Assembly (NCBI GenBank): GCA_018263585.1
Contig: JAANWZ010000093.1
Location: 1-34,188 of the forward strand
From: Calditrichota bacterium
Lineage (GTDB): Bacteria; Electryoneota; Electryoneia; Electryoneales; Electryoneaceae
DNA length: 34,188 bases
Reading direction: 5' to 3'
The notes under the pieces are model-generated. The model was given only the letters and a program-made list of their open reading frames with translations. It was not told the DNA's origin and ran no database searches. The stretch's first letter is position 1. Every line of letters begins with the position of its first letter. This document shows positions 8,974 to 22,132 of this stretch, piece by piece. Made by a program: the position numbers and the translations under genes.

Positions 8974-11859
8974 TCATTTTGCCAGCACGACTTTCTGCGT
9001 CCGTGCCTCGCCCGCGTGCGTGACGCGCAGCAGGTAAACGCCCGCGGCGAGCGTTCCGCCCGACGTTTCCGCGGACAGGGTGACCGTGTGCCGGCCCGCG
9101 CTCATCCGCGCCGTGGACTGCGCGACCCGCTGCCCGAGCACGTTGTAGAGCGCGACCGTGACCTCGCCCGGCGCCGGAAGCGCGAGATCGACCGCGAGCG
9201 ACGGGTTGAACGGGTTCGGGTACGCGTGCCCGACGCTGAACTCGTCCGGGACGCCGACGGGCGCCGCGTCCTCGTCCGCGCCGCTCGCGGGCGCGACCGC
9301 GACGCGTGTGTACGCGCCCGAGCCGAACGTGCCATCCCCGGCGAACAGTTCCGTGATCAGCAGCTCCTCGCCCTCGCCGGTAGATGCGTCGCGGTAGTCG
9401 AATGTGATCGGGTCGCCGCTGGTGAACCCCTCGCCGTTGCCGGGATCGCCCCACGCGGTCACGATCACCGGGAACACGTCGTGAGCTGGCGCGGCCGCGC
9501 CGACCGCGAGCCCGTCGTCGAGCACCGCGACCTCTACGTCGGTCAGCGGTCCCGGCACGCCTTCACTGATCACGACCGGGTACGGCTGGTCGTTCGGCGG
9601 CACGACTTCGTACTGCTGAAACTCCGCCGGCCACGCCTTCACCGCGGTCACATCGAAGAAGCTCCAGCCGTTGTCGAGGTCGCGCGAGCCGAGGAACACG
9701 CCGTCGATCGGCGCGTCCGCGACTTCGAGCAGCTCGTGCGTGACGAGCGCGAACTCGTCGTCGAGCAGGATCACGTGCAGCATTCCGTCGAGGTAGTGCA
9801 CGGCGAGCCGGTACCAGCGGTTGTAGTCGAGGGAGGCGTTGCCGAACGGGGCCGGGTTCGGCATCCCGGGGTGCGCGTACCAGAGCCCGCCGCTGTGTCC
9901 GATGAACACCTCGAACCGATCGTCGCCGGAGTACAGGTGCACCGCCCCGGCCTGCCCGCCCGGGACCGGGAACCCGCTCAGGTAGAACCAGGTATCGACA
10001 CTCGCGCCCTCGGATTCGGCGAAGTAACGCTGGATCCCGTCGTAAACATCGTTCGGGCTCGAGACGCCGGCCGAGTACTCGCCTTCATATTGCCGGCTCG
10101 TGAACCGCCATGTGTTCGCCTCGTTCAGCACCTCCCACTCGTCGAGGCTGTCTTCGAAGTCATCGACGATCGGAATCCCGTACAGCCCGGAGTAGTAGAC
10201 GGATTCATCGAGCGGGAGCGACTCGATTTCGCCGAACACGCCGCGCACCCGGTACGTGTAGTCGCCCGCATCCGGGAGCTGGTCGGTGTACGTCTCGTCC
10301 GTGGTTTCCGCGAGCAGCAGCTCGCCGTTGCGGTAGATGTTGTAGCCGAGGAAGTCGTCGTGGTCGCCGGGGTCGATGTGCCATGCGAGCGCGACTTCGC
10401 CGGTCGCGCGATCGACTTCCGCGTCGAGCTGGTCGGGCACAGGCAGCGTGCCCGCGGGCGCGTATTCGGCCGCCCGGCGGGCGTTGACACGGCCCGCGCC
10501 GAGCAGCCCCGCGTACGAAGCGTTCAGCGAGTCGATGTTGTCCGCGCTCGCCTTGAGCACGAGCTCGAGCTGGTCGTCGTCCAACTCCGGGTGGTAGCCG
10601 AGGATGTACGCCGCGACCGAGGCCGCGTTCGGGCTCGCCATCGACGTGCCCTGCCACGCGACGTAATCCTGCGGCTGGTAATAGCCGCCGACCATCGTGC
10701 TCCAGATGCCGACGCCCGGCGCAGTGATCCCGACCCACTCGCCGTACGTCGAGAACCCGGCCTTGTAGTCGTTCGACGTGCTCGCGACGACCGCGATCGC
10801 GCCGTCGTACCCCGCCGGGTAGTTCATGTTGTCGTCGCCGTTGTTGCCCGCGGAGGCGAACAGGATCACGCCGTTGTCGCGCGCGTAGTCGATCACGTCC
10901 TGGTACGACTGCTGGTAACTCGGTCCGCCGAACGAGATCGAGATCACGCGCGTGCCGTTGTCCACCACGTACTGGATCGCGGCCATGAAGTCGGTGCCGA
11001 ACCCGCTGCCGCCGAGCGAGCCGCCGTCCACCCACGCGAACCCGGCGCGCGCGGGAAATGCGACCGCGTTCCATGACGCCGCGGCGACGCCGATTCCGTT
11101 GTCGGTGGACGCGGCCGCGGTGCCCATCACGTGCGTGCCGTGCCCGTGGATGTCCGGATACACCATGTTGTCGCGCGGGCCGTAGTCCTCGCCCACAGCC
11201 GGGTCGCCCCACAGGTCGCCGACGTCGATCGAGACGAAATCCCAGCCGGTGAGATCATCGACGAACCCGTTGTTGTCGTCGTCGATCCCGTTGTTGTCGG
11301 ACTCGTCCCAGAACCCGTCGCCGTCGAGGTCCTCGCCCGGGTTCACCCACATGTTGTTGAACAGGTCCTCGTGCGTGATCTTGCACCCGGTGTCGATCGT
11401 GGTCACGCGCACTTCGGTGTCGGACTGGAAGATGTCCCACGCCTCCGGGCACTCCATGATCTCGAGGCCCCACATGTTGAAAATGTCGAAGTCGTTCGGC
11501 ATCAGCATCGCGTGATGGAGCTCGTCGAGCTCGCTGTGGAGGATGTCGCCGCCGGTCGGGATCTTGCCGATCAGCGCGCGGCCGTCCGGCGCGTGCTCGA
11601 GACGGAACCAGCGGTTCAGGCCGTGCTCGTACCAGGACGCGTTCAGCGCCGGGTCGTTCGGCTCGTAGAAGAGGGGGACGATCTGCGCATCCGCGCCGGC
11701 GTAGCTGCGCACGACCGCCGGCATTACACCGGATTCGCGCGCCGTGTACGCCGCCTGGTCGGACAGTTCCAGGATGAGACGGGTCGGCATCTCCGCGGAG
11801 AACGCGGAGGAGATGATCAGGAGCGAAAGAGTGATGACAACGGGCAATCTGAGCAGCAT
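8974..11859 (-). CDS. Secreted S8 (subtilisin-like) serine peptidase with FlgD/T9SS-like C-terminal sorting domain
   Basis: Signal peptide MLLRLPVVITLSLLIISSAFSA; triad motifs TTIDTG, HGHGTHVMGT, GTSMASPNAA; C-terminal YPNPFNPS...VALYNVLGQRV...AGVYLLRV; GGAGGG RBS upstream. Confidence 0.93.
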   Translation of the reverse strand: MLLRLPVVITLSLLIISSAFSAEMPTRLILELSDQAAYTARESGVMPAVVRSYAGADAQIVPLFYEPNDPALNASWYEHGLNRWFRLEHAPDGRALIGKIPTGGDILHSELDELHHAMLMPNDFDIFNMWGLEIMECPEAWDIFQSDTEVRVTTIDTGCKITHEDLFNNMWVNPGEDLDGDGFWDESDNNGIDDDNNGFVDDLTGWDFVSIDVGDLWGDPAVGEDYGPRDNMVYPDIHGHGTHVMGTAAASTDNGIGVAAASWNAVAFPARAGFAWVDGGSLGGSGFGTDFMAAIQYVVDNGTRVISISFGGPSYQQSYQDVIDYARDNGVILFASAGNNGDDNMNYPAGYDGAIAVVASTSNDYKAGFSTYGEWVGITAPGVGIWSTMVGGYYQPQDYVAWQGTSMASPNAASVAAYILGYHPELDDDQLELVLKASADNIDSLNASYAGLLGAGRVNARRAAEYAPAGTLPVPDQLDAEVDRATGEVALAWHIDPGDHDDFLGYNIYRNGELLLAETTDETYTDQLPDAGDYTYRVRGVFGEIESLPLDESVYYSGLYGIPIVDDFEDSLDEWEVLNEANTWRFTSRQYEGEYSAGVSSPNDVYDGIQRYFAESEGASVDTWFYLSGFPVPGGQAGAVHLYSGDDRFEVFIGHSGGLWYAHPGMPNPAPFGNASLDYNRWYRLAVHYLDGMLHVILLDDEFALVTHELLEVADAPIDGVFLGSRDLDNGWSFFDVTAVKAWPAEFQQYEVVPPNDQPYPVVISEGVPGPLTDVEVAVLDDGLAVGAAAPAHDVFPVIVTAWGDPGNGEGFTSGDPITFDYRDASTGEGEELLITELFAGDGTFGSGAYTRVAVAPASGADEDAAPVGVPDEFSVGHAYPNPFNPSLAVDLALPAPGEVTVALYNVLGQRVAQSTARMSAGRHTVTLSAETSGGTLAAGVYLLRVTHAGEARTQKVVLAK

Positions 11860-12098
11860 GAGGATGTTCCCTCCACGAAGTAGCCGTGCGGGCAGACGGC
11901 GTTCGGCGCCGTTCGCCGTGTTCACGTTGGAACAGGATGATCCGACCCGCGGTCACGGTGCAAAGATTATGACCGCCGCAGGTGTGTGACCCGTTCGCAC
12001 TGACGAAAGAAACAGGATACGGGCGGCGTGCGTCCCGTGCAACGGATCGCGGGGCGTGGGGAGAGAATGCGCCGTGCTTGTCCAGGATGGCGCAGTTG

Positions 12099-12234: not shown

Positions 12235-12816
12235 TCAACCTTCGAGCAGCTCGCTCAGCTTCCCGTCGAACGCGAGCAGCGTCTGCCGGTCGAACAGGCA
12301 GAGACGGATTTCGCGAACTGAGCTCTCGTCCTCTTTGTCGAGGTACTTGCGGATCGTGTCGAGGATGATCCCGGCGGCGCGCTCGAGCGGGAACGCGAAG
12401 ATCCCGGTGGACACGGCCGGGAAGCTGATCGACTCGACGCCGTACTCGTCCGCCATCACGAGCGCGCACTTGATCGCGGAGGCGAGCTTCGCGTCCTCGT
12501 CGCCTTCGCCCCAGCGCGGGCCGACGGTGTGGATCACCCAGCGCGCGGGGAGGTCGCCGGCGGAGGTGATCACGCACGTGCCGGCCGCGACCGGCGCGAA
12601 CTTCTTCGACTCTGCGCGGATCACCGGTCCCCCGCGGTTCGCGATCGCCGCCGCGACGCCGCCGCCGTGCTGCATGTGGCTGCCGGCCGCGTTCACGATC
12701 GCGTCCACGCCTTCGACCGTGATGTCGCCGCTCACGAGCACGAGTTTGCGCCCGGTCGCGTGTGTCCACGTGCGGAACTGCTCGTTCGTCGCTGCAGCCA
12801 TCGCATGCCCCCTCAT
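12235..12816 (-). CDS. Macro-domain protein (ADP-ribose binding/hydrolase type)
   Basis: GDITVEGVDAIVNAAGSHMQHGGGVAAAIANRGG and SFPAVSTGIFAFPLERAA. Confidence 0.92.
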   Translation of the reverse strand: MRGHAMAAATNEQFRTWTHATGRKLVLVSGDITVEGVDAIVNAAGSHMQHGGGVAAAIANRGGPVIRAESKKFAPVAAGTCVITSAGDLPARWVIHTVGPRWGEGDEDAKLASAIKCALVMADEYGVESISFPAVSTGIFAFPLERAAGIILDTIRKYLDKEDESSVREIRLCLFDRQTLLAFDGKLSELLEG

Positions 12817-13101: not shown

Positions 13102-14694
13102 CTACTGCGGCAACAGCACCGGCATTCCCATCATCGGCCAGATGAACGCGATGAACACTGCGAGCACGGCCATCAGCAGCACGCTCGCCGGCGCCCCGAC
13201 CTTGAAGAACTCCCCGGATTTGAACTGACCGCTCTCGTAGGCGATCGCGTTCGGCGCGGCGCCGACGAGGAACAGGAACGGCATCCCTGCCACGGCGAGG
13301 CTCGCCCAGAACACGACTTCCGGCGCCACGTGCACGTATTGCGCGATCACGAGCGCGACCGGCAGGCTGATCGCGATCGCGGCCACGTTCATGATCAGGT
13401 TTGTCATCAGCAGCACGAACGCCGCGATCCCGAGCACGAAGATGAACCAGTTCGCGTTTTCGAGCAGCATGATGAACTGGACCGCGAGCCAGCGCGCGGC
13501 GCCGGTCTGCCACAGGCAGAAGCCGATGCTCATCGCCCCGCCGAACAGGAGGATGATGTTCCACGGGATCTCTTCGAGGTCCTTCAGGTTCAGGATCCTG
13601 AACAGGAAGAAGAGGATGGTCGTGGTCAGGATGATCGCGCTCTTGTTGAACGGGGCGAGCGCGGGCACGAACGAGCGCAGGCTGAGGAACACGATCACTC
13701 CGGCGACGAGCACGACCGCGGTCCATTCGCCGCGTTTCATCGGGCCGAGCCGTGAATACAGCGCGTGCGCCCGTTCGCGCAGCCCGGGGATGTGCGCCTT
13801 TTCCGGCCGGTACACGAGCAGCATGTAGCCCCAGAGCAGCACGGTCATCGCCACCCCGACCGGAAACATGTAGTACGAGTACTCGAAGAACGTGATCTCG
13901 CGTCCGACGATGTCCTTGAAGAAGGCGATTCCGACCGCGCCACGGGCCGCGCCGAGCAGGGTGATGATGCTGCCCGCGCCCGCGACGAACGCCATCCCGA
14001 TAAACAATCCCTTGCCGAACCGGGTCGGCGTCGTCGAGTGCGAGTACATCGTGTAGATTGCGCGCAGCAGCGGGTACATCGCGGCCGCGACCGCGGTGTG
14101 CGCCATCACCAGCGTCATCGCGGACGTCATCAGGAACACGCCGAGCAGAATCAGCGCGGTCCGCTCGCCGACGACGACCAGCATCCGGTACGCGAGCCGC
14201 TGGGTCAGGCCCGTCTTCGAGAACACCTTCCCGATGATCAGCGACCCGAAGATGAACCACACCGACGGGTCGAAGAAGTCGGTGAACGCAACGCGCGGGT
14301 CGCGGATGAGGAACATCGCCTGGAACACCGCGATCGCGATCGAGGTGACCCCGATCGGGACGACTTCGAACACCCACCACACCGCCGCGAGCAGGAACAG
14401 CCCGATCGCGGCCTTTCCTTCCCGCGAGAGCGCGAACACATCGCCGACCGGATCGGTCGCGTCCGGCCAGGACGGGGAGAGGAACACGCCGGTGAACAGC
14501 GCGAGCCCGAGCGCGATCAGCGCGATGCGCCTGAGATCGAGCGGCGCCCGCCGTTCCGCGAGCGTGATTTCGCCCGGTTTCTCCGGCAGAGATTCGGGGT
14601 GAGCGCGGGAGTCCGCGCCCGACACCGGCTTCTTCTCTTTCCTGCTCGTGTCGGAGGGCTTTTTGTGAACAAAATCACGAATACCGGCAAACAT
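13102..14694 (-). CDS. SLC13/DASS-family anion permease (divergent)
   Basis: Multi-helix protein; WWVFEVVPIGVTSIAIAVFQAMF, FGSLIIGKVFSKTGL, FLVGAAPNAIAYESGQF; GGAG RBS before MFAGIRDF start. Confidence 0.85.
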   Translation of the reverse strand: MFAGIRDFVHKKPSDTSRKEKKPVSGADSRAHPESLPEKPGEITLAERRAPLDLRRIALIALGLALFTGVFLSPSWPDATDPVGDVFALSREGKAAIGLFLLAAVWWVFEVVPIGVTSIAIAVFQAMFLIRDPRVAFTDFFDPSVWFIFGSLIIGKVFSKTGLTQRLAYRMLVVVGERTALILLGVFLMTSAMTLVMAHTAVAAAMYPLLRAIYTMYSHSTTPTRFGKGLFIGMAFVAGAGSIITLLGAARGAVGIAFFKDIVGREITFFEYSYYMFPVGVAMTVLLWGYMLLVYRPEKAHIPGLRERAHALYSRLGPMKRGEWTAVVLVAGVIVFLSLRSFVPALAPFNKSAIILTTTILFFLFRILNLKDLEEIPWNIILLFGGAMSIGFCLWQTGAARWLAVQFIMLLENANWFIFVLGIAAFVLLMTNLIMNVAAIAISLPVALVIAQYVHVAPEVVFWASLAVAGMPFLFLVGAAPNAIAYESGQFKSGEFFKVGAPASVLLMAVLAVFIAFIWPMMGMPVLLPQ

Positions 14695-14707
14695 AGTCTG
14701 CGCTCCG

Positions 14708-15229
14708 TCACAGAACCATCTTCGCGACCGCGTGCAGCACATCGATCGAACGGACGACGCCGACGATCTTCCCATCGCGGAGCACGGGCAGCATGTACAC
14801 GTTGTTGACCACGATCTCGCGCACCGCGTGCAGCAGCGTGTCCGTGACCTGGATCGTGTGTACGATCGGGTTCATCACTTCGCTCACCGGCCGGTTCGCC
14901 TGCTCCGCGATGTCGCCCTCTTCCGCGGCGAACACGTCGCTCAGATTCGGGTCGACGTGGATGTCGTACGTGCTCCGGATCCCCTCGTCCGCATCTTCGA
15001 GCAGGTAGGAGGGGAGCAGCCCGCGCAGGATGTCCCGCCGGCGAACGAATCCCATCAGGCGGTAGGTTTCGTCGAACACGAGCACGACCCGCGGGATCGA
15101 CCGGCGGCCGTCCGTTTCCACCTCGGCGGTCTCCATCTCGGCTATCGCCTGGCGGACCGTGAACCAGTACGGGATGTGGGGGTAGAGGTCGAGGGGGACC
15201 ATGATGTCCCCGGCGGTCAGGTTCTCCAT
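14708..15229 (-). CDS. CBS-domain pair protein
   Basis: TAGDIMVPLDLYPHIPYWFTVRQAIAEM...MGFVRRRDIL and VSEVMNPIVHTIQVTDTLLHAVREIVVNNVYMLPVLRDGKIVGVVRSIDVL; AGGGAGG RBS. Confidence 0.88.
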   Translation of the reverse strand: MENLTAGDIMVPLDLYPHIPYWFTVRQAIAEMETAEVETDGRRSIPRVVLVFDETYRLMGFVRRRDILRGLLPSYLLEDADEGIRSTYDIHVDPNLSDVFAAEEGDIAEQANRPVSEVMNPIVHTIQVTDTLLHAVREIVVNNVYMLPVLRDGKIVGVVRSIDVLHAVAKMVL

Positions 15230-15264
15230 CGGGCCTCCCTTGCAGCGAAAGTCGTCGCCGCCGC

Positions 15265-15654
15265 TCACTCACTCGCCCGGCGCTCGCGCTGTCGCGCGAG
15301 CGCCCGCTCCACCGTGGTGAGGATCTGTTCCTTGCGGAAAGGCTTGTGAATATAGTCGAAAACACCGAGCTCGCGCGCCTGCTCCGAGCTCTGATAATCC
15401 CCAAAGGCTGTGATCAGAATCACGAGTTCATCGCGCTCCTTCCCGCGAACGAGCCGGAGCACGTCGAGCCCGTCCAGCTTCGGCATGCTCAGATCGGTGA
15501 TGATGAGGTCGAACCGGTGTTGCGCGAGCAACCGCGGGATTTCGAGCGCGTTGTTTGTCGTCACGACCTCGTACGGCGTCTTCTCGCGGATTATCCGTTC
15601 GAGCAACACGAGCATGTCGGGCTCGTCGTCCACGGCAAGGATGCTCTCGCTCAT
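15265..15654 (-). CDS. REC-only response regulator
   Basis: ILAVDDEPDM, DLIITDLSMPKLDG, ITAFGD, IHKPF; ATG overlaps the kinase stop (ATGA). Confidence 0.93.
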   Translation of the reverse strand: MSESILAVDDEPDMLVLLERIIREKTPYEVVTTNNALEIPRLLAQHRFDLIITDLSMPKLDGLDVLRLVRGKERDELVILITAFGDYQSSEQARELGVFDYIHKPFRKEQILTTVERALARQRERRASE

Positions 15655-17783
15655 GAAGCCGCCTCCGGGTTGAATTCAGCGTCGTACACCGGAATCCGAA
15701 TCGTGAACGTCGTCCCCGAGTCGTTTCTCCGGTCCTCGCCGGCGGTTCGAGTTTCGAACTCTATTTCCCCGCCCCATTTCCTCACCAGCCCGTAGCAGAG
15801 CGAAAGCCCGAGCCCGGTCCCCTCGCCGAATTCCTTCGTCGTGAAGAACGGGTCGAACACGCGCGGGCGGATCTCTTCAGGGATGCCGCGGCCGTTGTCC
15901 TTCACGCAGAGCTGGACCCAGCCGTCGCCCGCGCGGTTCGCGACGATCTGCACCACTCCCCGCTTGTGATCGATCGCGGCGGCGGCGTTGTTCACGAGGT
16001 TGAGCAGCACCTGCTGAATCTCGCGCGAGTCGCCGTTCACCGGCGGCAGGTTGTCGTCGATTTCGACCTCGAGCTCGGTCTTCTTCACAAGGTGCGTCTT
16101 GCGCACGAATTCGGCGAGCCGGTGCACGCTCTCCGCGAGGTCGGCGTGTTTGCGCACGGCGTGTTCGGACCGGGAGAACCCGAGCAGGTCGTTGACAATC
16201 GTCTGCGCCTGGTTCGCGTTTGCCTCGATCTTCTCCAGGTCCCGGTAGATGTCGCTGTCCGGCTCGAACCGCTCCTTCAGCAGGTCGGTGAACCCGAGGA
16301 TGATCGCGAGCGGGTTGCTGATCTCGTGCGCGACTCCGGAGGCGAGCAGGCCGATCGAGGCCAGTTTTTCCGCGTTGTACATTTTCTGGTCGAACTCGTG
16401 CTTTTCCGTAACATCCTTGACGACGGCGGTGTGGCCCTCGAACTGGCCGTCCTCGCTGCGGAAGGGAGTGCGCGAGATGTCCACGGTGATTCTGCGGCCG
16501 TCCTTCGTCACGCGCTGCGTGATGAAGTTGCGCACGTACCCGTGTTGCCGCACGAGCTCATCGAGCCGCGCGATCTCCTCGTCGGGATCGATGTCCGGCG
16601 GGATCAACCTGCGGAACGTCTGCCCGAGCATCTCCTCGGGCGTGTAGCCGAAGATGAGCTGCGCGCCCCGGTTCCACATCTGGATGTGATTCTCGTTGTC
16701 GAACACGATGATCGCATCGACGCTGTTCGTGAGGATGCTCGCAATGATCTGGTCCTGTTCGCCGACGAGCAGTTTGAGCCGGCGCGATGTGCGTTGCTGG
16801 TAGCCGGCGACGAGCATCCCCGCGAGCAGCATGATCAGCAGCAGGCCGCCGAGTGTGAAAAACTCGCGGCGGTAGATCGTGTCCACGTCCGCGAGCAGTC
16901 CCTCCGCAGAGGTGACGAGCGCGAGCCGGCCGAGCGGGTGATCGACGAATTGTTCGCCGGACACTGTCGCGTACGATACGAACATCAGCCGGTTGCCGCG
17001 CTCGCCCGGCGCCGCGAGCTCCGCTTCCACGAACCCGCGCGGTTCCGCCGCGAGCCGACTCGCGAGCGGCTCGTTCACATCCTGGAGAAACCGCGCCCCG
17101 GCGAACGGTCCCGTTCCCGCCGACTCCGCGCCCGGCACCGACTTCAGGGAACCGTCCCGCTCGACCAGGTACATGTTCCCGCCGCCCGTTTCGATCTCCC
17201 CGAACATCGCCGCGAGCAGGGCGTGCACGCTTACGCGCGCGTAGAAACGGACTCCCGGTTTGCCCGCGCCGCGCTCCCCGGCGCCGAGCAACAGGTACGT
17301 TTCGCTCGCGCCGGTCGTATCGGTGACTTCGACGAGCAGGCCAATATCCTTCGGCGCGTGCACCGCCGCGTTCTCCGGCGGGTTCGGCAACCCGACTTCA
17401 TAGACGAGAAACGGCGGCGCGCTCGCGTCGAGCCGACCGATCTGCGTCACCCCGAGCCGTCGCGTCCGTTCGACCGCGATCCGCATCGTTCTCTCCAGCT
17501 CCGAACGGCCGGCCGCCCGCGAGTGGCGCTCGAGGCCGGCGACCTCGGCCTGGATCACGTTCAGCGACCAGCGAATCCGGTCGGCGGCCTGATCGACGAT
17601 CCGCAGCTGTTGCCGGCTGAAGTCATCCTTGAGCCGGTTGCGCACCACGCGCGCGTTGTTGTACACGCTCACCGCCGACGCGAGAAACACGAGCGCGAAC
17701 AGGCCCGCGGTCACCGGCAGCAGAAGCGGCGACTGGATCCAGCGCACCCACAGCCTGCTCAGTCTGGCACGCAGCGACCTCAT
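15651..17783 (-). CDS. Membrane sensor histidine kinase (TM - extracytoplasmic sensor - TM - PAS - HisKA - HATPase)
   Basis: LASGVAHEISNPLAIILGFTDLL H-box; KDNGRGIPEEIRPRVFDPFFTTK and GTGLGLSLCYGLV; PAS segment IIVFDNENHIQMWNRGAQLIFGYTPEEMLGQ. Confidence 0.93.
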   Translation of the reverse strand: MRSLRARLSRLWVRWIQSPLLLPVTAGLFALVFLASAVSVYNNARVVRNRLKDDFSRQQLRIVDQAADRIRWSLNVIQAEVAGLERHSRAAGRSELERTMRIAVERTRRLGVTQIGRLDASAPPFLVYEVGLPNPPENAAVHAPKDIGLLVEVTDTTGASETYLLLGAGERGAGKPGVRFYARVSVHALLAAMFGEIETGGGNMYLVERDGSLKSVPGAESAGTGPFAGARFLQDVNEPLASRLAAEPRGFVEAELAAPGERGNRLMFVSYATVSGEQFVDHPLGRLALVTSAEGLLADVDTIYRREFFTLGGLLLIMLLAGMLVAGYQQRTSRRLKLLVGEQDQIIASILTNSVDAIIVFDNENHIQMWNRGAQLIFGYTPEEMLGQTFRRLIPPDIDPDEEIARLDELVRQHGYVRNFITQRVTKDGRRITVDISRTPFRSEDGQFEGHTAVVKDVTEKHEFDQKMYNAEKLASIGLLASGVAHEISNPLAIILGFTDLLKERFEPDSDIYRDLEKIEANANQAQTIVNDLLGFSRSEHAVRKHADLAESVHRLAEFVRKTHLVKKTELEVEIDDNLPPVNGDSREIQQVLLNLVNNAAAAIDHKRGVVQIVANRAGDGWVQLCVKDNGRGIPEEIRPRVFDPFFTTKEFGEGTGLGLSLCYGLVRKWGGEIEFETRTAGEDRRNDSGTTFTIRIPVYDAEFNPEAAS

Positions 17784-20371
17784 AGCGGAAACACCTTCGA
17801 ACGGTCGAGCTCGAGCTTGCGCGCGAAGTCTTCGATGTACCAGCGCGTGATCCGGTCGTTCGAGAGCGCCATGTCGAGCTGCTTCGTGAGCATCACGAGT
17901 CTGCCGACGCGGTTGATGTTCAGCTCCGCCGGCTCGCGCTCCATTCCGGTCGCGCGGCAGTCGATGTAGTCGGATTTCACCGTGTGTTCGAACCCCATCC
18001 GGTCGAGCAGTTCTTCCAGCAGTCCGATTCTTCTCCGCCTCCGTTTGTCAGCGGCGCCGCCACCCTTGTAATGTACGCGGATCAGGTTGCGCGCGGCATC
18101 GTCCGAAAGCACCGCTTCCACGCTCGTGAAATGATACCCGAGGTACAGGTTCGCGAGCATGTACTCGCGGCGGACGACGGCAAAGCTGCTCTCCGTGAAC
18201 TGCGCCTCGCCCGGCAGCCCCTGGTCGCTGCGTCGATCCACCCGCAGCCGCGCCGGTTCCGGGTAGGCGAACGGCCACTTCTCCGCGAGCAAACCGTCCC
18301 AGAACGCGCGCATCGGGGCCGAGGGAATCGATTGATCGTCGTACGGTTTCGTGCGCGCGTGCCCCGTCTCCTCGTCGAGGTTCAGGATCATCACGGGAAA
18401 CGGGAGCGCGGTCTTCAGCCGCACGCCGAGATCCTGCCTCCGCCCGAGCGACCGGGCGTACGCGAACACCTCCTCGATTCCCCGCTGGTGCGCGAAACGC
18501 GTGATGTCGTGCAGTGTGCGGCACCGCTCCGGCCGGAACTCGGGGTCGCGCGGATTCACCAGGTGCAGCGGTGAAATGAGCGCGAGCAGCCGGCGCAACA
18601 GATCGAAGATCGCCGTGTCCTGGAACAGGTCATACTCCGGCCGCCGCGCCTGCATGAGCTCCGTGTTGCAGCCGGCGTACACCCGCGTCCCCGACGCGTC
18701 CACGGTGACCTCTGTCCCCGCCGGCAACCGCTTTCGCGCCTGCACGAGACCAACGATCGTCGGCAGCCTCCGCTCGCGCACGAGCGTCGCCATGTGGCTC
18801 GCGCTGCTGCCGACCTCGGTGACAACCGCCGCCGCGCGATCCAGCACCTGCGCCAGCGCCGGGAACGGGTTCGCGGCGACAACCACGCTGCCGTGCCGCA
18901 CCGGCGCGAGATCCGCCTCGCCGGATACGTGCGCGACCTCCCCGCATCCCGCCCCCGGGCAGATCGTCGTGCCCCCCTCCGCCAGCAGCTCATGATCGCT
19001 CATGTCCGGCAGTTCGAACGACGGCTGCGCGCAGATCGTCCGCAGCGGCCGCGTCTGCAACATGTAGATCGCTCCCGTCCCGTCGATTGCCCATTCGACG
19101 TCCTGCGGGTGTTCGTAGTGATCCTCGATCCGGGTCGCGATCCGCGCCAGTTCAACCAGTTGCCGGTCGTCGAGACACGGCCGCCCGCGCAGCTCTTCCG
19201 GGACGGGCATTTCCCGCGTTCCGTTGCCCGCGTCCAGCTTCAGTTGCACCCCCTTCTCGTGCACCGCGCGTTCGAGGATCTCATTGCTGTCACGGGAGAT
19301 TCGGTACACGTCCGGCGTGAGCACACCGCCGACGAGATACGGCCCGAGCCCGTAGATCGCATGCACCTGGATCACGGCGTCTTCCGGGTCGAGCGGATCG
19401 CGCGTGTAGATGACGCCGCTCACGGCCGCGTCCACCATCCGCGTGCAGCCCACGCTCATCGACAGGTTCGCCTCTTCCAGCGAGTGGCTGAGGAAGTAGT
19501 AGATCGCGCGGGGACTGTACTTGCTCGCGAGGATCTGCCGGTAGCGATCGAGAATCTCACCGGGAGGGACGTTGAGGAAGCTGGAATACTGGCCGGCGAA
19601 GCTGAACAGCGTGTCCTCGCCGACGGCACTCGAACGGAGCGCGACAGGCTCCGGCCCCGCATCCCCCGTGAGCTCGCCGTACGCTTCACGAACCGCGTCC
19701 GCGAGATCCTCCGGGATCGGCGCCGTCAGGATCCGCTCGCGCAGCGTCGCGCTCGCCCGCTCGAGATCCTCCTGGTCGCGGATGTCCAGCTCGGTGAGCG
19801 TCTCGTGGATGCGGTCGGCGAGACGGTTTTCCGCCAACACGTGCTGGAACGCGTGCGTCGTAATCGCGAACCCGTCGGGGATATTCAGCCCGAGCGCGCG
19901 CAGTTCCCCGAGTTGCGCGTTCTTGCCGCCGACGCTCGCGCTGTGCACACGGCCGATCCGTGCAAACTCTAGCACGAACGGCCCCGGGAGCACATCTCGG
20001 CCGCCGGGAAGCAGCCCGTCGATCTGGTTCCAGATCGCTTGTGCGCGCGCGCGCAACGTCTCGTACGGCTCGCCCCCGAGATCGATGATCCGCTCGATGA
20101 TGTCGCCGATCCCGTCCCGCAACGTCTCGATCGACCTGCGCACGTACACGATGTCAAAGAGAAAGTCGCCCTGCGCTTTCTCCTCCATGTCGCCGATCAC
20201 CGAGAGCACGCGGTTGTTGCTCTCGACCAGCGCGCGGAAACCGTCGAACCGCCGGCGCAGATTCTCGAGATCAACCGCCGCCTCGGAACCGGCCGTCTCA
20301 CCGCCCGCGCCGTTCCCGGCGCCGCCCTCCCCGCGCGCACCCTGCCTGCGCTTCCGCAGCCAGCCCATCAT
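17780..20371 (-). CDS. PEP synthase/PPDK-like protein: ATP-grasp plus phosphohistidine domain, no recognisable PEP-binding TIM barrel
   Basis: ARIGRVHSASVGGKNAQLGELRALGLNIPDGFAIT; ALRSSAVGEDTLFSFAGQYSSFLNV; DVEWAIDGTGAIYMLQTRP; TEVGSSASHMATLVRERRLPTIVG. Remaining C-terminus does not read as PEP-utilizers_C. Confidence 0.85.
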   Translation of the reverse strand: MMGWLRKRRQGARGEGGAGNGAGGETAGSEAAVDLENLRRRFDGFRALVESNNRVLSVIGDMEEKAQGDFLFDIVYVRRSIETLRDGIGDIIERIIDLGGEPYETLRARAQAIWNQIDGLLPGGRDVLPGPFVLEFARIGRVHSASVGGKNAQLGELRALGLNIPDGFAITTHAFQHVLAENRLADRIHETLTELDIRDQEDLERASATLRERILTAPIPEDLADAVREAYGELTGDAGPEPVALRSSAVGEDTLFSFAGQYSSFLNVPPGEILDRYRQILASKYSPRAIYYFLSHSLEEANLSMSVGCTRMVDAAVSGVIYTRDPLDPEDAVIQVHAIYGLGPYLVGGVLTPDVYRISRDSNEILERAVHEKGVQLKLDAGNGTREMPVPEELRGRPCLDDRQLVELARIATRIEDHYEHPQDVEWAIDGTGAIYMLQTRPLRTICAQPSFELPDMSDHELLAEGGTTICPGAGCGEVAHVSGEADLAPVRHGSVVVAANPFPALAQVLDRAAAVVTEVGSSASHMATLVRERRLPTIVGLVQARKRLPAGTEVTVDASGTRVYAGCNTELMQARRPEYDLFQDTAIFDLLRRLLALISPLHLVNPRDPEFRPERCRTLHDITRFAHQRGIEEVFAYARSLGRRQDLGVRLKTALPFPVMILNLDEETGHARTKPYDDQSIPSAPMRAFWDGLLAEKWPFAYPEPARLRVDRRSDQGLPGEAQFTESSFAVVRREYMLANLYLGYHFTSVEAVLSDDAARNLIRVHYKGGGAADKRRRRRIGLLEELLDRMGFEHTVKSDYIDCRATGMEREPAELNINRVGRLVMLTKQLDMALSNDRITRWYIEDFARKLELDRSKVFPL

Positions 20372-20569: not shown

Positions 20570-22132
20570 ATGGAACCTGATCTCAGCGCCGAAGATCGGA
20601 GACAACTCCGCGAACGCGGCATCGAGGAGAGCACACTTCGCGCTCAACTTGACCAGATTCGACGCGGGACGGTGCGCACGGAACTGGTGCGCGCCTGTAC
20701 CGCCGGGGATGGCATCCGACAGCTCACACGAAATCAGCGCGAATCCGCCCGCGAGGCGCACCGGAAAGCGGCGGCCCGGGGGAGATTCATCAAGTTCGTG
20801 CCCGCCTCCGGCGCCGCGAGCAGGATGTTCAAACCGCTGCTCACTGTGCTCCGAACCGTCGATCACGAGACCGGTATCGACGAACTCCGGCGCAGTGCGG
20901 GCAGCGGGGATGAGGATGCGCGGTTCGCGGTCACGTTCCTCGAAAACGTGCGCCGGTTTCCGTTTGCCCCCGCACTCGCGGAACTGCTCGCGCGCAGAGG
21001 GACAACGCTTGACGCGGAGCCGGATGCGGGCCGGGTGCGGAACGTGCTTGCGGCCGTGCTCGAGCCCGACGGGCTCGCCTTCGCGTCGCTCCCAAAAGGG
21101 CTGATACCGTTTCATCGTGCCGGGGACGATGTCCGCACGCCCGTGACCGAACACATGTTTGAAGCAAGCGATTATGTGCGTGGTGCGGACGGTCGGGCCC
21201 CCCTCCACTTCACCGTCTCGCCGCAGCATCGAGCCCGGTTCGACGACCGGGTGCGCCGGGACGCGCGCCGATTTCCGCACACCGAGTTCGCCGTCTCGTT
21301 CTCGGAGCAGGCCGCGTCCACGGACACGATTGCGGCGGATCTGGACAATCGGCCGCTCCGGGATCGGGATGGCCGGCTCGTGTTCCGGCCCGGGGGGCAC
21401 GGCGCCCTGCTCCCGAACCTGAACGCGCTCGACGCCGATTTCGTGTACATCAAGAACGTGGACAACGTCGTCCCGCCCGATCGCGCCGAGCTCACGCTCG
21501 TGACGATGCGCGAACTGGCCGGGGTTCTCGCCCAACTCGTTGAGCGTCGTAACGAGGCGCTGGAGGAATTGGCGTCTCCGCCGGCGGATGCGTTCTTAAT
21601 AGAAAGATGGAAGAAATGGGTCTCTGAAACACTGGAGCTGGAGGTCAACCTCCCGCAACCGGGCGGTGCAGAGACGAGGAGGCAGGCACTCTTCGACGAG
21701 CTGAACCGCCCGGTCAGGGTCTGTGGAATGGTGCGAAACGTCGGTCAGCCCGGCGGCGGGCCGTTCTGGGTCAGGCGTTCCAGCGGTCGCATCGACCGGC
21801 AGATCGTGGAAATGTCGCAGATCGAGCTCGGGGACCCGGGCCAGGCGGAAATAGTCGCGGGCGCGACTCATTTCAACCCTGTCGAGATCGTCTGCGCACT
21901 GCGCGATCACCGCGGGAAGCCGTACGATCTCCGGCGGTACGTCGATCCGGAAACCGCGTTCATCGCGCGCAAATCAAAGGACGGCCGGGAGTTGAAGGCG
22001 CTGGAGTTGCCGGGCCTTTGGAACGGGTCGATGGCCGACTGGCTCACCGTGTTCGTGGAAGTCCCGGAGCAGACGTTCAACCCGGTGAAGACGGTGAATG
22101 ACCTGCTCGGCGAGGCGCACCGGCCGTTATGA
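20570..22132 (+). CDS. DUF4301-like protein
   Basis: LSAEDRRQLRERGI and GRFIKFVPASGAASRMFKPLL match my recollection of DUF4301 proteins; GGGGAGGAG RBS 5-6 nt before ATG. Confidence 0.75.
   Translation: MEPDLSAEDRRQLRERGIEESTLRAQLDQIRRGTVRTELVRACTAGDGIRQLTRNQRESAREAHRKAAARGRFIKFVPASGAASRMFKPLLTVLRTVDHETGIDELRRSAGSGDEDARFAVTFLENVRRFPFAPALAELLARRGTTLDAEPDAGRVRNVLAAVLEPDGLAFASLPKGLIPFHRAGDDVRTPVTEHMFEASDYVRGADGRAPLHFTVSPQHRARFDDRVRRDARRFPHTEFAVSFSEQAASTDTIAADLDNRPLRDRDGRLVFRPGGHGALLPNLNALDADFVYIKNVDNVVPPDRAELTLVTMRELAGVLAQLVERRNEALEELASPPADAFLIERWKKWVSETLELEVNLPQPGGAETRRQALFDELNRPVRVCGMVRNVGQPGGGPFWVRRSSGRIDRQIVEMSQIELGDPGQAEIVAGATHFNPVEIVCALRDHRGKPYDLRRYVDPETAFIARKSKDGRELKALELPGLWNGSMADWLTVFVEVPEQTFNPVKTVNDLLGEAHRPL

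Follow-up and report, generated by a model that had tools for sequence, protein, structure and literature searches.

A contig of 34,188 nucleotides from Calditrichota bacterium (JAANWZ010000093.1, assembly GCA_018263585.1), which in its entirety forms the window analysed here, raises the question why a protein resembling phosphoenolpyruvate (PEP) synthase is encoded in one operon with a two-component pair, a CBS-pair protein and an SLC13/DASS permease. The five genes lie at positions 13102-20371 on the minus strand of the window, in a source genome of 2.85 Mb that is 92% complete. With a probability of about 0.72, the operon is a module for taking up sulfate and controlling this uptake, in a bacterium that has a dissimilatory sulfur pathway.

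A first-pass annotation had listed five consecutive minus-strand genes with two ATGA overlaps and two short gaps, and the open reading frames and translations agree with it to the base. The first gene (17780-20371), analysed by Pfam, a 69-sequence alignment and AlphaFold2, encodes the PEP-synthase-like protein of 863 residues with PPDK_N and PEP-utilizers domains. At 17783-17780 it overlaps the gene of a membrane PAS sensor histidine kinase (15651-17783, 710 residues; PAS, HisKA and HATPase_c, with H486 in the H-box), which in turn overlaps at 15654-15651 that of a single-domain response regulator (15265-15654, 129 residues; Response_reg, with D54 as phosphoacceptor). After a gap of 35 bp follows the CBS-pair protein (14708-15229, 173 residues; two CBS domains) and, 13 bp further, the SLC13/DASS permease (13102-14694, 530 residues; Na_sulph_symp), carrying the signature MAHTAVAA / TNLIMNVAA. 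Scans for promoters and terminators gave no excess over shuffled sequence.

The best 80 loci from a scan of genome contigs were taken as related loci, with taxon names as given in the record labels. Loci with at least 40% identity and at least 5.5 kb of downstream sequence were considered informative (n=34). Downstream of the first gene, these loci encode a kinase in 21/34 cases, a receiver (REC) regulator in 26/34, a CBS protein in 26/34 and an SLC13 permease in 17/34. Thirteen of the 34 have the complete set in the order of the window, a recurrence beyond chance that bears out the earlier suggestion that the linkage might be present in other genomes. These 13 loci are labelled Phycisphaerae, Poribacteria, Acidobacteria, Zixiibacteriota, Deltaproteobacteria and Ignavibacterium, besides some without a taxon name. 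In two deltaproteobacterial loci (L117 and L120) the CBS-SLC13 pair precedes the first gene, the kinase and the regulator, and in two others (L129 and L132) it is divergent from the rest of the set. Since the association is kept despite such rearrangements, a functional link among the genes is indicated. Among loci with less than 40% identity the linkage is looser. No paper on the linkage itself emerged from a search of the literature.

The occurrence of the module follows that of dissimilatory sulfur metabolism. Within a sample of 39 genomes of the phylum (Candidatus Electryoneota), the SLC13 subfamily of the window permease occurs in 20, all of which carry aprA and/or dsrA/dsrB, and in none of the 18 genomes without aprA and dsr (Fisher, 3e-10; this and the following Fisher values ignore the shared ancestry of the related genomes and overstate significance). 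The sole phylum genome with dsrA but without the subfamily is 79% complete (G010). A similar picture is obtained with the C-terminal domain of the first protein, which was detected in 18 of 291 genomes: dsrA is present in 16/18 of these versus 24/273 genomes without the domain (Fisher, 1e-13) and, outside the phylum, in 5/7 versus 16/245 (Fisher, 5e-5). Likewise, 43 of the 50 genomes behind the related loci carry dsrA. Some of the genes concerned adjoin the module itself: L086 has sat and aprA there, L058 and L059 have a bifunctional sat-apsK close to SLC13, and L071 and L122 have HdrA/Qmo-like genes, for which NCBIfam gave HdrA-like matches and which we take to be Qmo-like. The window genome itself carries sat, aprA, HdrA/Qmo-like genes, dsrA, a dsrB-like frame, dsrC and dsrK.

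The permease belongs to the same family and fold as the SLC13/DASS members VcINDY, NaS1 and NaCT, with a Pfam Na_sulph_symp match of 1.5e-48 and a TIGR00785 score just above the cut-off (200 vs 198.6 bits). The SNT motifs of the VcINDY type are absent from it, AHT being found in the first repeat and MNV in the second. In relatives with a complete region, MAH[TA]AVAA and TNxxMNVAA stand at the positions of the VcINDY SNT motifs, and nearly all members of the subfamily have AHT in place of the first-repeat SNT, which sets the subfamily apart at its presumed substrate site. The same motifs are also present in most phylum members that are unlinked to the first gene. Along the lines of the first-pass annotation, one could suppose that the first protein phosphorylates the kinase or REC and that the module controls a dicarboxylate-like anion permease. 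The tight gene coupling and the frequency of the REC gene speak for such a scheme, as does the fact that the SLC13 family includes dicarboxylate carriers. The permease subfamily, however, follows apr/dsr, and sat, aprA and Qmo-like genes adjoin it in relatives, so that this scheme as a whole appears improbable. An anion permease beside a two-component pair and a CBS protein stands, while the dicarboxylate substrate is disfavoured; because the module follows apr/dsr/sat/qmo genes, the substrate is probably sulfate.

A comparable arrangement is known from sulfate reducers. A DASS/two-component/CBS gene cluster has been published for Desulfobacteraceae and other sulfate reducers (26 species), for which the main text proposes that sulfate uptake is controlled by outside sulfate and by the energy state (PMC11887813); in Desulfosarcina variabilis this cluster is Dvar_38230-38430. 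DASS genes have also been described in the vicinity of sat and aprAB (PMC5840216). Compared with the main-text description of the Desulfobacteraceae cluster, the window likewise holds a DASS permease, a CBS protein, a kinase and a regulator together, in a genome with the sulfate-reduction genes sat, aprA, dsrAB, dsrC and dsrK. The kinases described there are of the dCache type; here the kinases of three relatives matched dCache_1, below the curated cut-off, and the window kinase gave no match. No PEP-synthase-like protein is named in the main text of PMC11887813, and the cluster it describes is one of sulfate reducers, whereas the set analysed here reaches many uncultivated phyla. Measured against that main text, the wide taxonomic spread and, provisionally, the PEP-synthase-like partner are new.

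Several observations weigh against a sulfate-uptake module, in addition to the shared ancestry of the genomes mentioned above. The first site motif of the permease is unlike that of VcINDY. In the phylum, CBS-SLC13 pairs frequently occur apart from the first gene, and the first gene also occurs without SLC13; the module thus has separable parts, and transport does not need the first protein. Furthermore, DsrD was not found in any of the 39 phylum genomes, although 3 of 12 other carriers gave it, which indicates that the search was able to detect it; the direction of the Dsr pathway is therefore not settled by DsrD. If the pathway were oxidative, the permease could export sulfate; alternatively, it could handle another sulfur oxyanion. 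A reading frame in the dsr region of the window genome, presumably DsrL-like, would count for the oxidative direction too. The reductive direction is instead taken from the complete sulfate-reduction pathway reported for Tariuqbacter (PMC10439189); Candidatus Tariuqbacter arcticus (locus L061) sits in Candidatus Electryoneota by taxonomy. Carriers outside the phylum, moreover, include records named Thermodesulfovibrio and Desulfobacca. On balance, an oxidative pathway or another oxyanion is considered unlikely.

What, then, is the first protein? Its domain order is an N-terminal helical region, an ATP-grasp domain, a swivelling phosphohistidine domain and a C-terminal domain without a described family. 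The ATP-grasp domain (PPDK_N, 7e-91) comprises residues 145-448 (19028-19939, minus strand) and the PEP-utilizers mobile domain (1.6e-14) residues 492-560 (18692-18898, minus strand). In the 69-sequence alignment, K150, R246, D424, E426, Q439 and R441 of the ATP-grasp domain are invariant, as is H526 (codon 18796-18794). In an alignment with solved PEP synthases, H526 falls on their phosphohistidine, and the ATP-grasp catalytic residues also correspond to those of these enzymes. The AlphaFold2 model has a mean predicted local distance difference test (pLDDT) score of 85.5. The first-pass annotation had recognised both domains and had seen no PEP-binding TIM barrel, and this holds: Pfam did not find PEP-utilizers_C in the protein, and no family matched after residue 571.

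The NCBIfam PEP synthase models match the protein, at residues 132-571 only, and would suggest a PEP synthase or pyruvate phosphate dikinase (PPDK) of the ordinary kind in an incidental neighbourhood. Yet the scores fall far under the curated equivalog cut-offs (338.6 vs 598 bits and 324.4 vs 739.75 bits), the barrel is absent and the linkage recurs. In addition, another reading frame of the window genome, on contig C87, has both PPDK_N and PEP-utilizers_C, so that PEP/pyruvate dikinase chemistry is probably covered elsewhere. The sequence thus disfavours this identity to the point of making it very improbable, and by its domain content the protein is not a PEP synthase. Two more contigs of the window genome, G000:C38 and G000:C51, carry further PPDK_N frames, and neither contig has a match to PEP-utilizers_C. 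Compared with PEP synthase and PPDK, the protein shares the ATP-grasp and swivelling domains with their catalytic residues but has an extra N-terminal helical region and, instead of the PEP/pyruvate TIM barrel, an undescribed domain. As the barrel is missing, PEP is unlikely to be the phosphoryl donor, and ATP is the predicted one.

The C-terminal domain spans residues 570-863 (about 290 residues; 17783-18664, minus strand). H621, D622, R625, H628, H747, N762, R781, D801, Q831 and D833 are invariant in the alignment, and the AlphaFold2 model of the domain has a mean pLDDT of 81.8. There was no convincing Pfam match among the 69 members, no relative in a sequence search of the PDB and no Foldseek match at E < 0.001 in the PDB or BFVD, in agreement with the earlier remark that the C-terminus is unassigned. 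A YbjN/type III chaperone-like fold was considered and rejected, the best PDB matches (4h5b and 2plg, E of about 0.1) not being significant. DR1245, considered as a kinase partner, was dropped as a lead, since the reference names it a DdrB partner. One genome of 3.5 Mb with dsrA and DsrD (G060) has eight copies of the domain family, on contigs C3, C6, C8, C11 and C13; a suspected fusion there, an open frame of 1838 residues, was taken as a long overlapping frame.

Instead of signalling, the first protein might be a metabolic dikinase whose C-terminal domain binds a small molecule as the acceptor of the phosphoryl group, its tie to the permease being one of pathway and not of control. The intact ATP-grasp and phosphohistidine residues and the many invariant polar residues of the C-terminal domain are compatible with such an enzyme. 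Rifampin phosphotransferase, among the best structural matches, provides an example of the PEP-synthase engine serving a different acceptor. Resemblance to that enzyme has its limits: in the first protein the undescribed domain comes after the phosphohistidine domain, and the NCBIfam match is confined to the ATP-grasp part (residues 132-448, 253.1 vs a cut-off of 999 bits). Up to eight paralogues in one genome and the repeated association with kinase and regulator genes fit signalling better, and the gene neighbourhood offers no substrate candidate. A metabolic dikinase is a minority possibility, to be kept in mind.

Within the sulfate-uptake module, the SLC13/DASS permease would bring in sulfate for respiration, and the CBS protein, whose gene immediately precedes that of the permease, probably adjusts the activity of the latter to an adenylate such as AMP, ATP or adenosine 5'-phosphosulfate. 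The membrane kinase and the response regulator may respond to a signal from outside the cell, probably sulfate, by changing expression. The regulator of most relatives ends in a tail of about 65 residues with a weak match to Fis-type DNA-binding domains (NtrX 5m7n, E 0.0017; HTH_8 in 5/18), which makes a transcriptional step probable there. The gap between REC and CBS in relatives, first considered to hold another small gene, is this C-terminal extension of the regulator with its Fis-type helix-turn-helix. The window regulator is without such a tail; the window is therefore not the typical version, and its clade looks like a reduced form of the module. In L058 and L059, the closest relatives, the kinase is short as well, at 456 residues.

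The biochemical role of the PEP-synthase-like protein is one that we infer. Its ATP-grasp domain is predicted to charge H526 from ATP, and, judging from the conserved residues and the domain order, the swivelling domain would hand the phosphoryl group to the C-terminal domain at the place of the pyruvate-binding barrel. By phosphorylating a bound ligand or a partner protein, the first protein might couple the ATP state of the cell to sulfate uptake. An ATP-driven phosphotransfer role of this kind is tentatively proposed. It is a more speculative idea that the protein founds a class of ATP-dependent, rather than PEP-dependent, phosphotransfer regulators with a new acceptor domain, which would read the ATP state and, with the two-component pair and the CBS protein, govern the entry of sulfate in many phyla that have a dissimilatory sulfur metabolism.

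Other genes are found around the operon and its relatives. In the window, a DUF4301 gene (20570-22132) is divergent from the operon, an arrangement shared with the two closest relatives; a macro-domain protein (12235-12816) is encoded downstream of the permease, and a subtilase with a Por secretion-system C-terminal sorting domain at 8974-11925. Near the first gene, permease genes that look TSUP/TauE-SafE-like occur in 22 of the 80 related loci (e.g., L086:1576-2619, L093:8286-9389 and L104:8911-9933); the TSUP name is our own presumption, and NCBIfam gave no match for the one such protein tried. Directly upstream of the first gene, what look like cysteine synthase-like and serine acetyltransferase-like genes are present in L068:3319-5028, L082:8322-9866, L095:5962-7500 and L107:5627-7171.

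Sulfate respiration begins with the uptake of sulfate, and most of what is known about how this uptake is controlled comes from studies of gene context and proteomes in Desulfobacteraceae. The module provides a specific, testable candidate for this control that is common to many uncultivated lineages, and it ties an unexplained protein domain to dissimilatory sulfur metabolism. It also highlights one conserved permease subfamily, which could act as a genomic marker.

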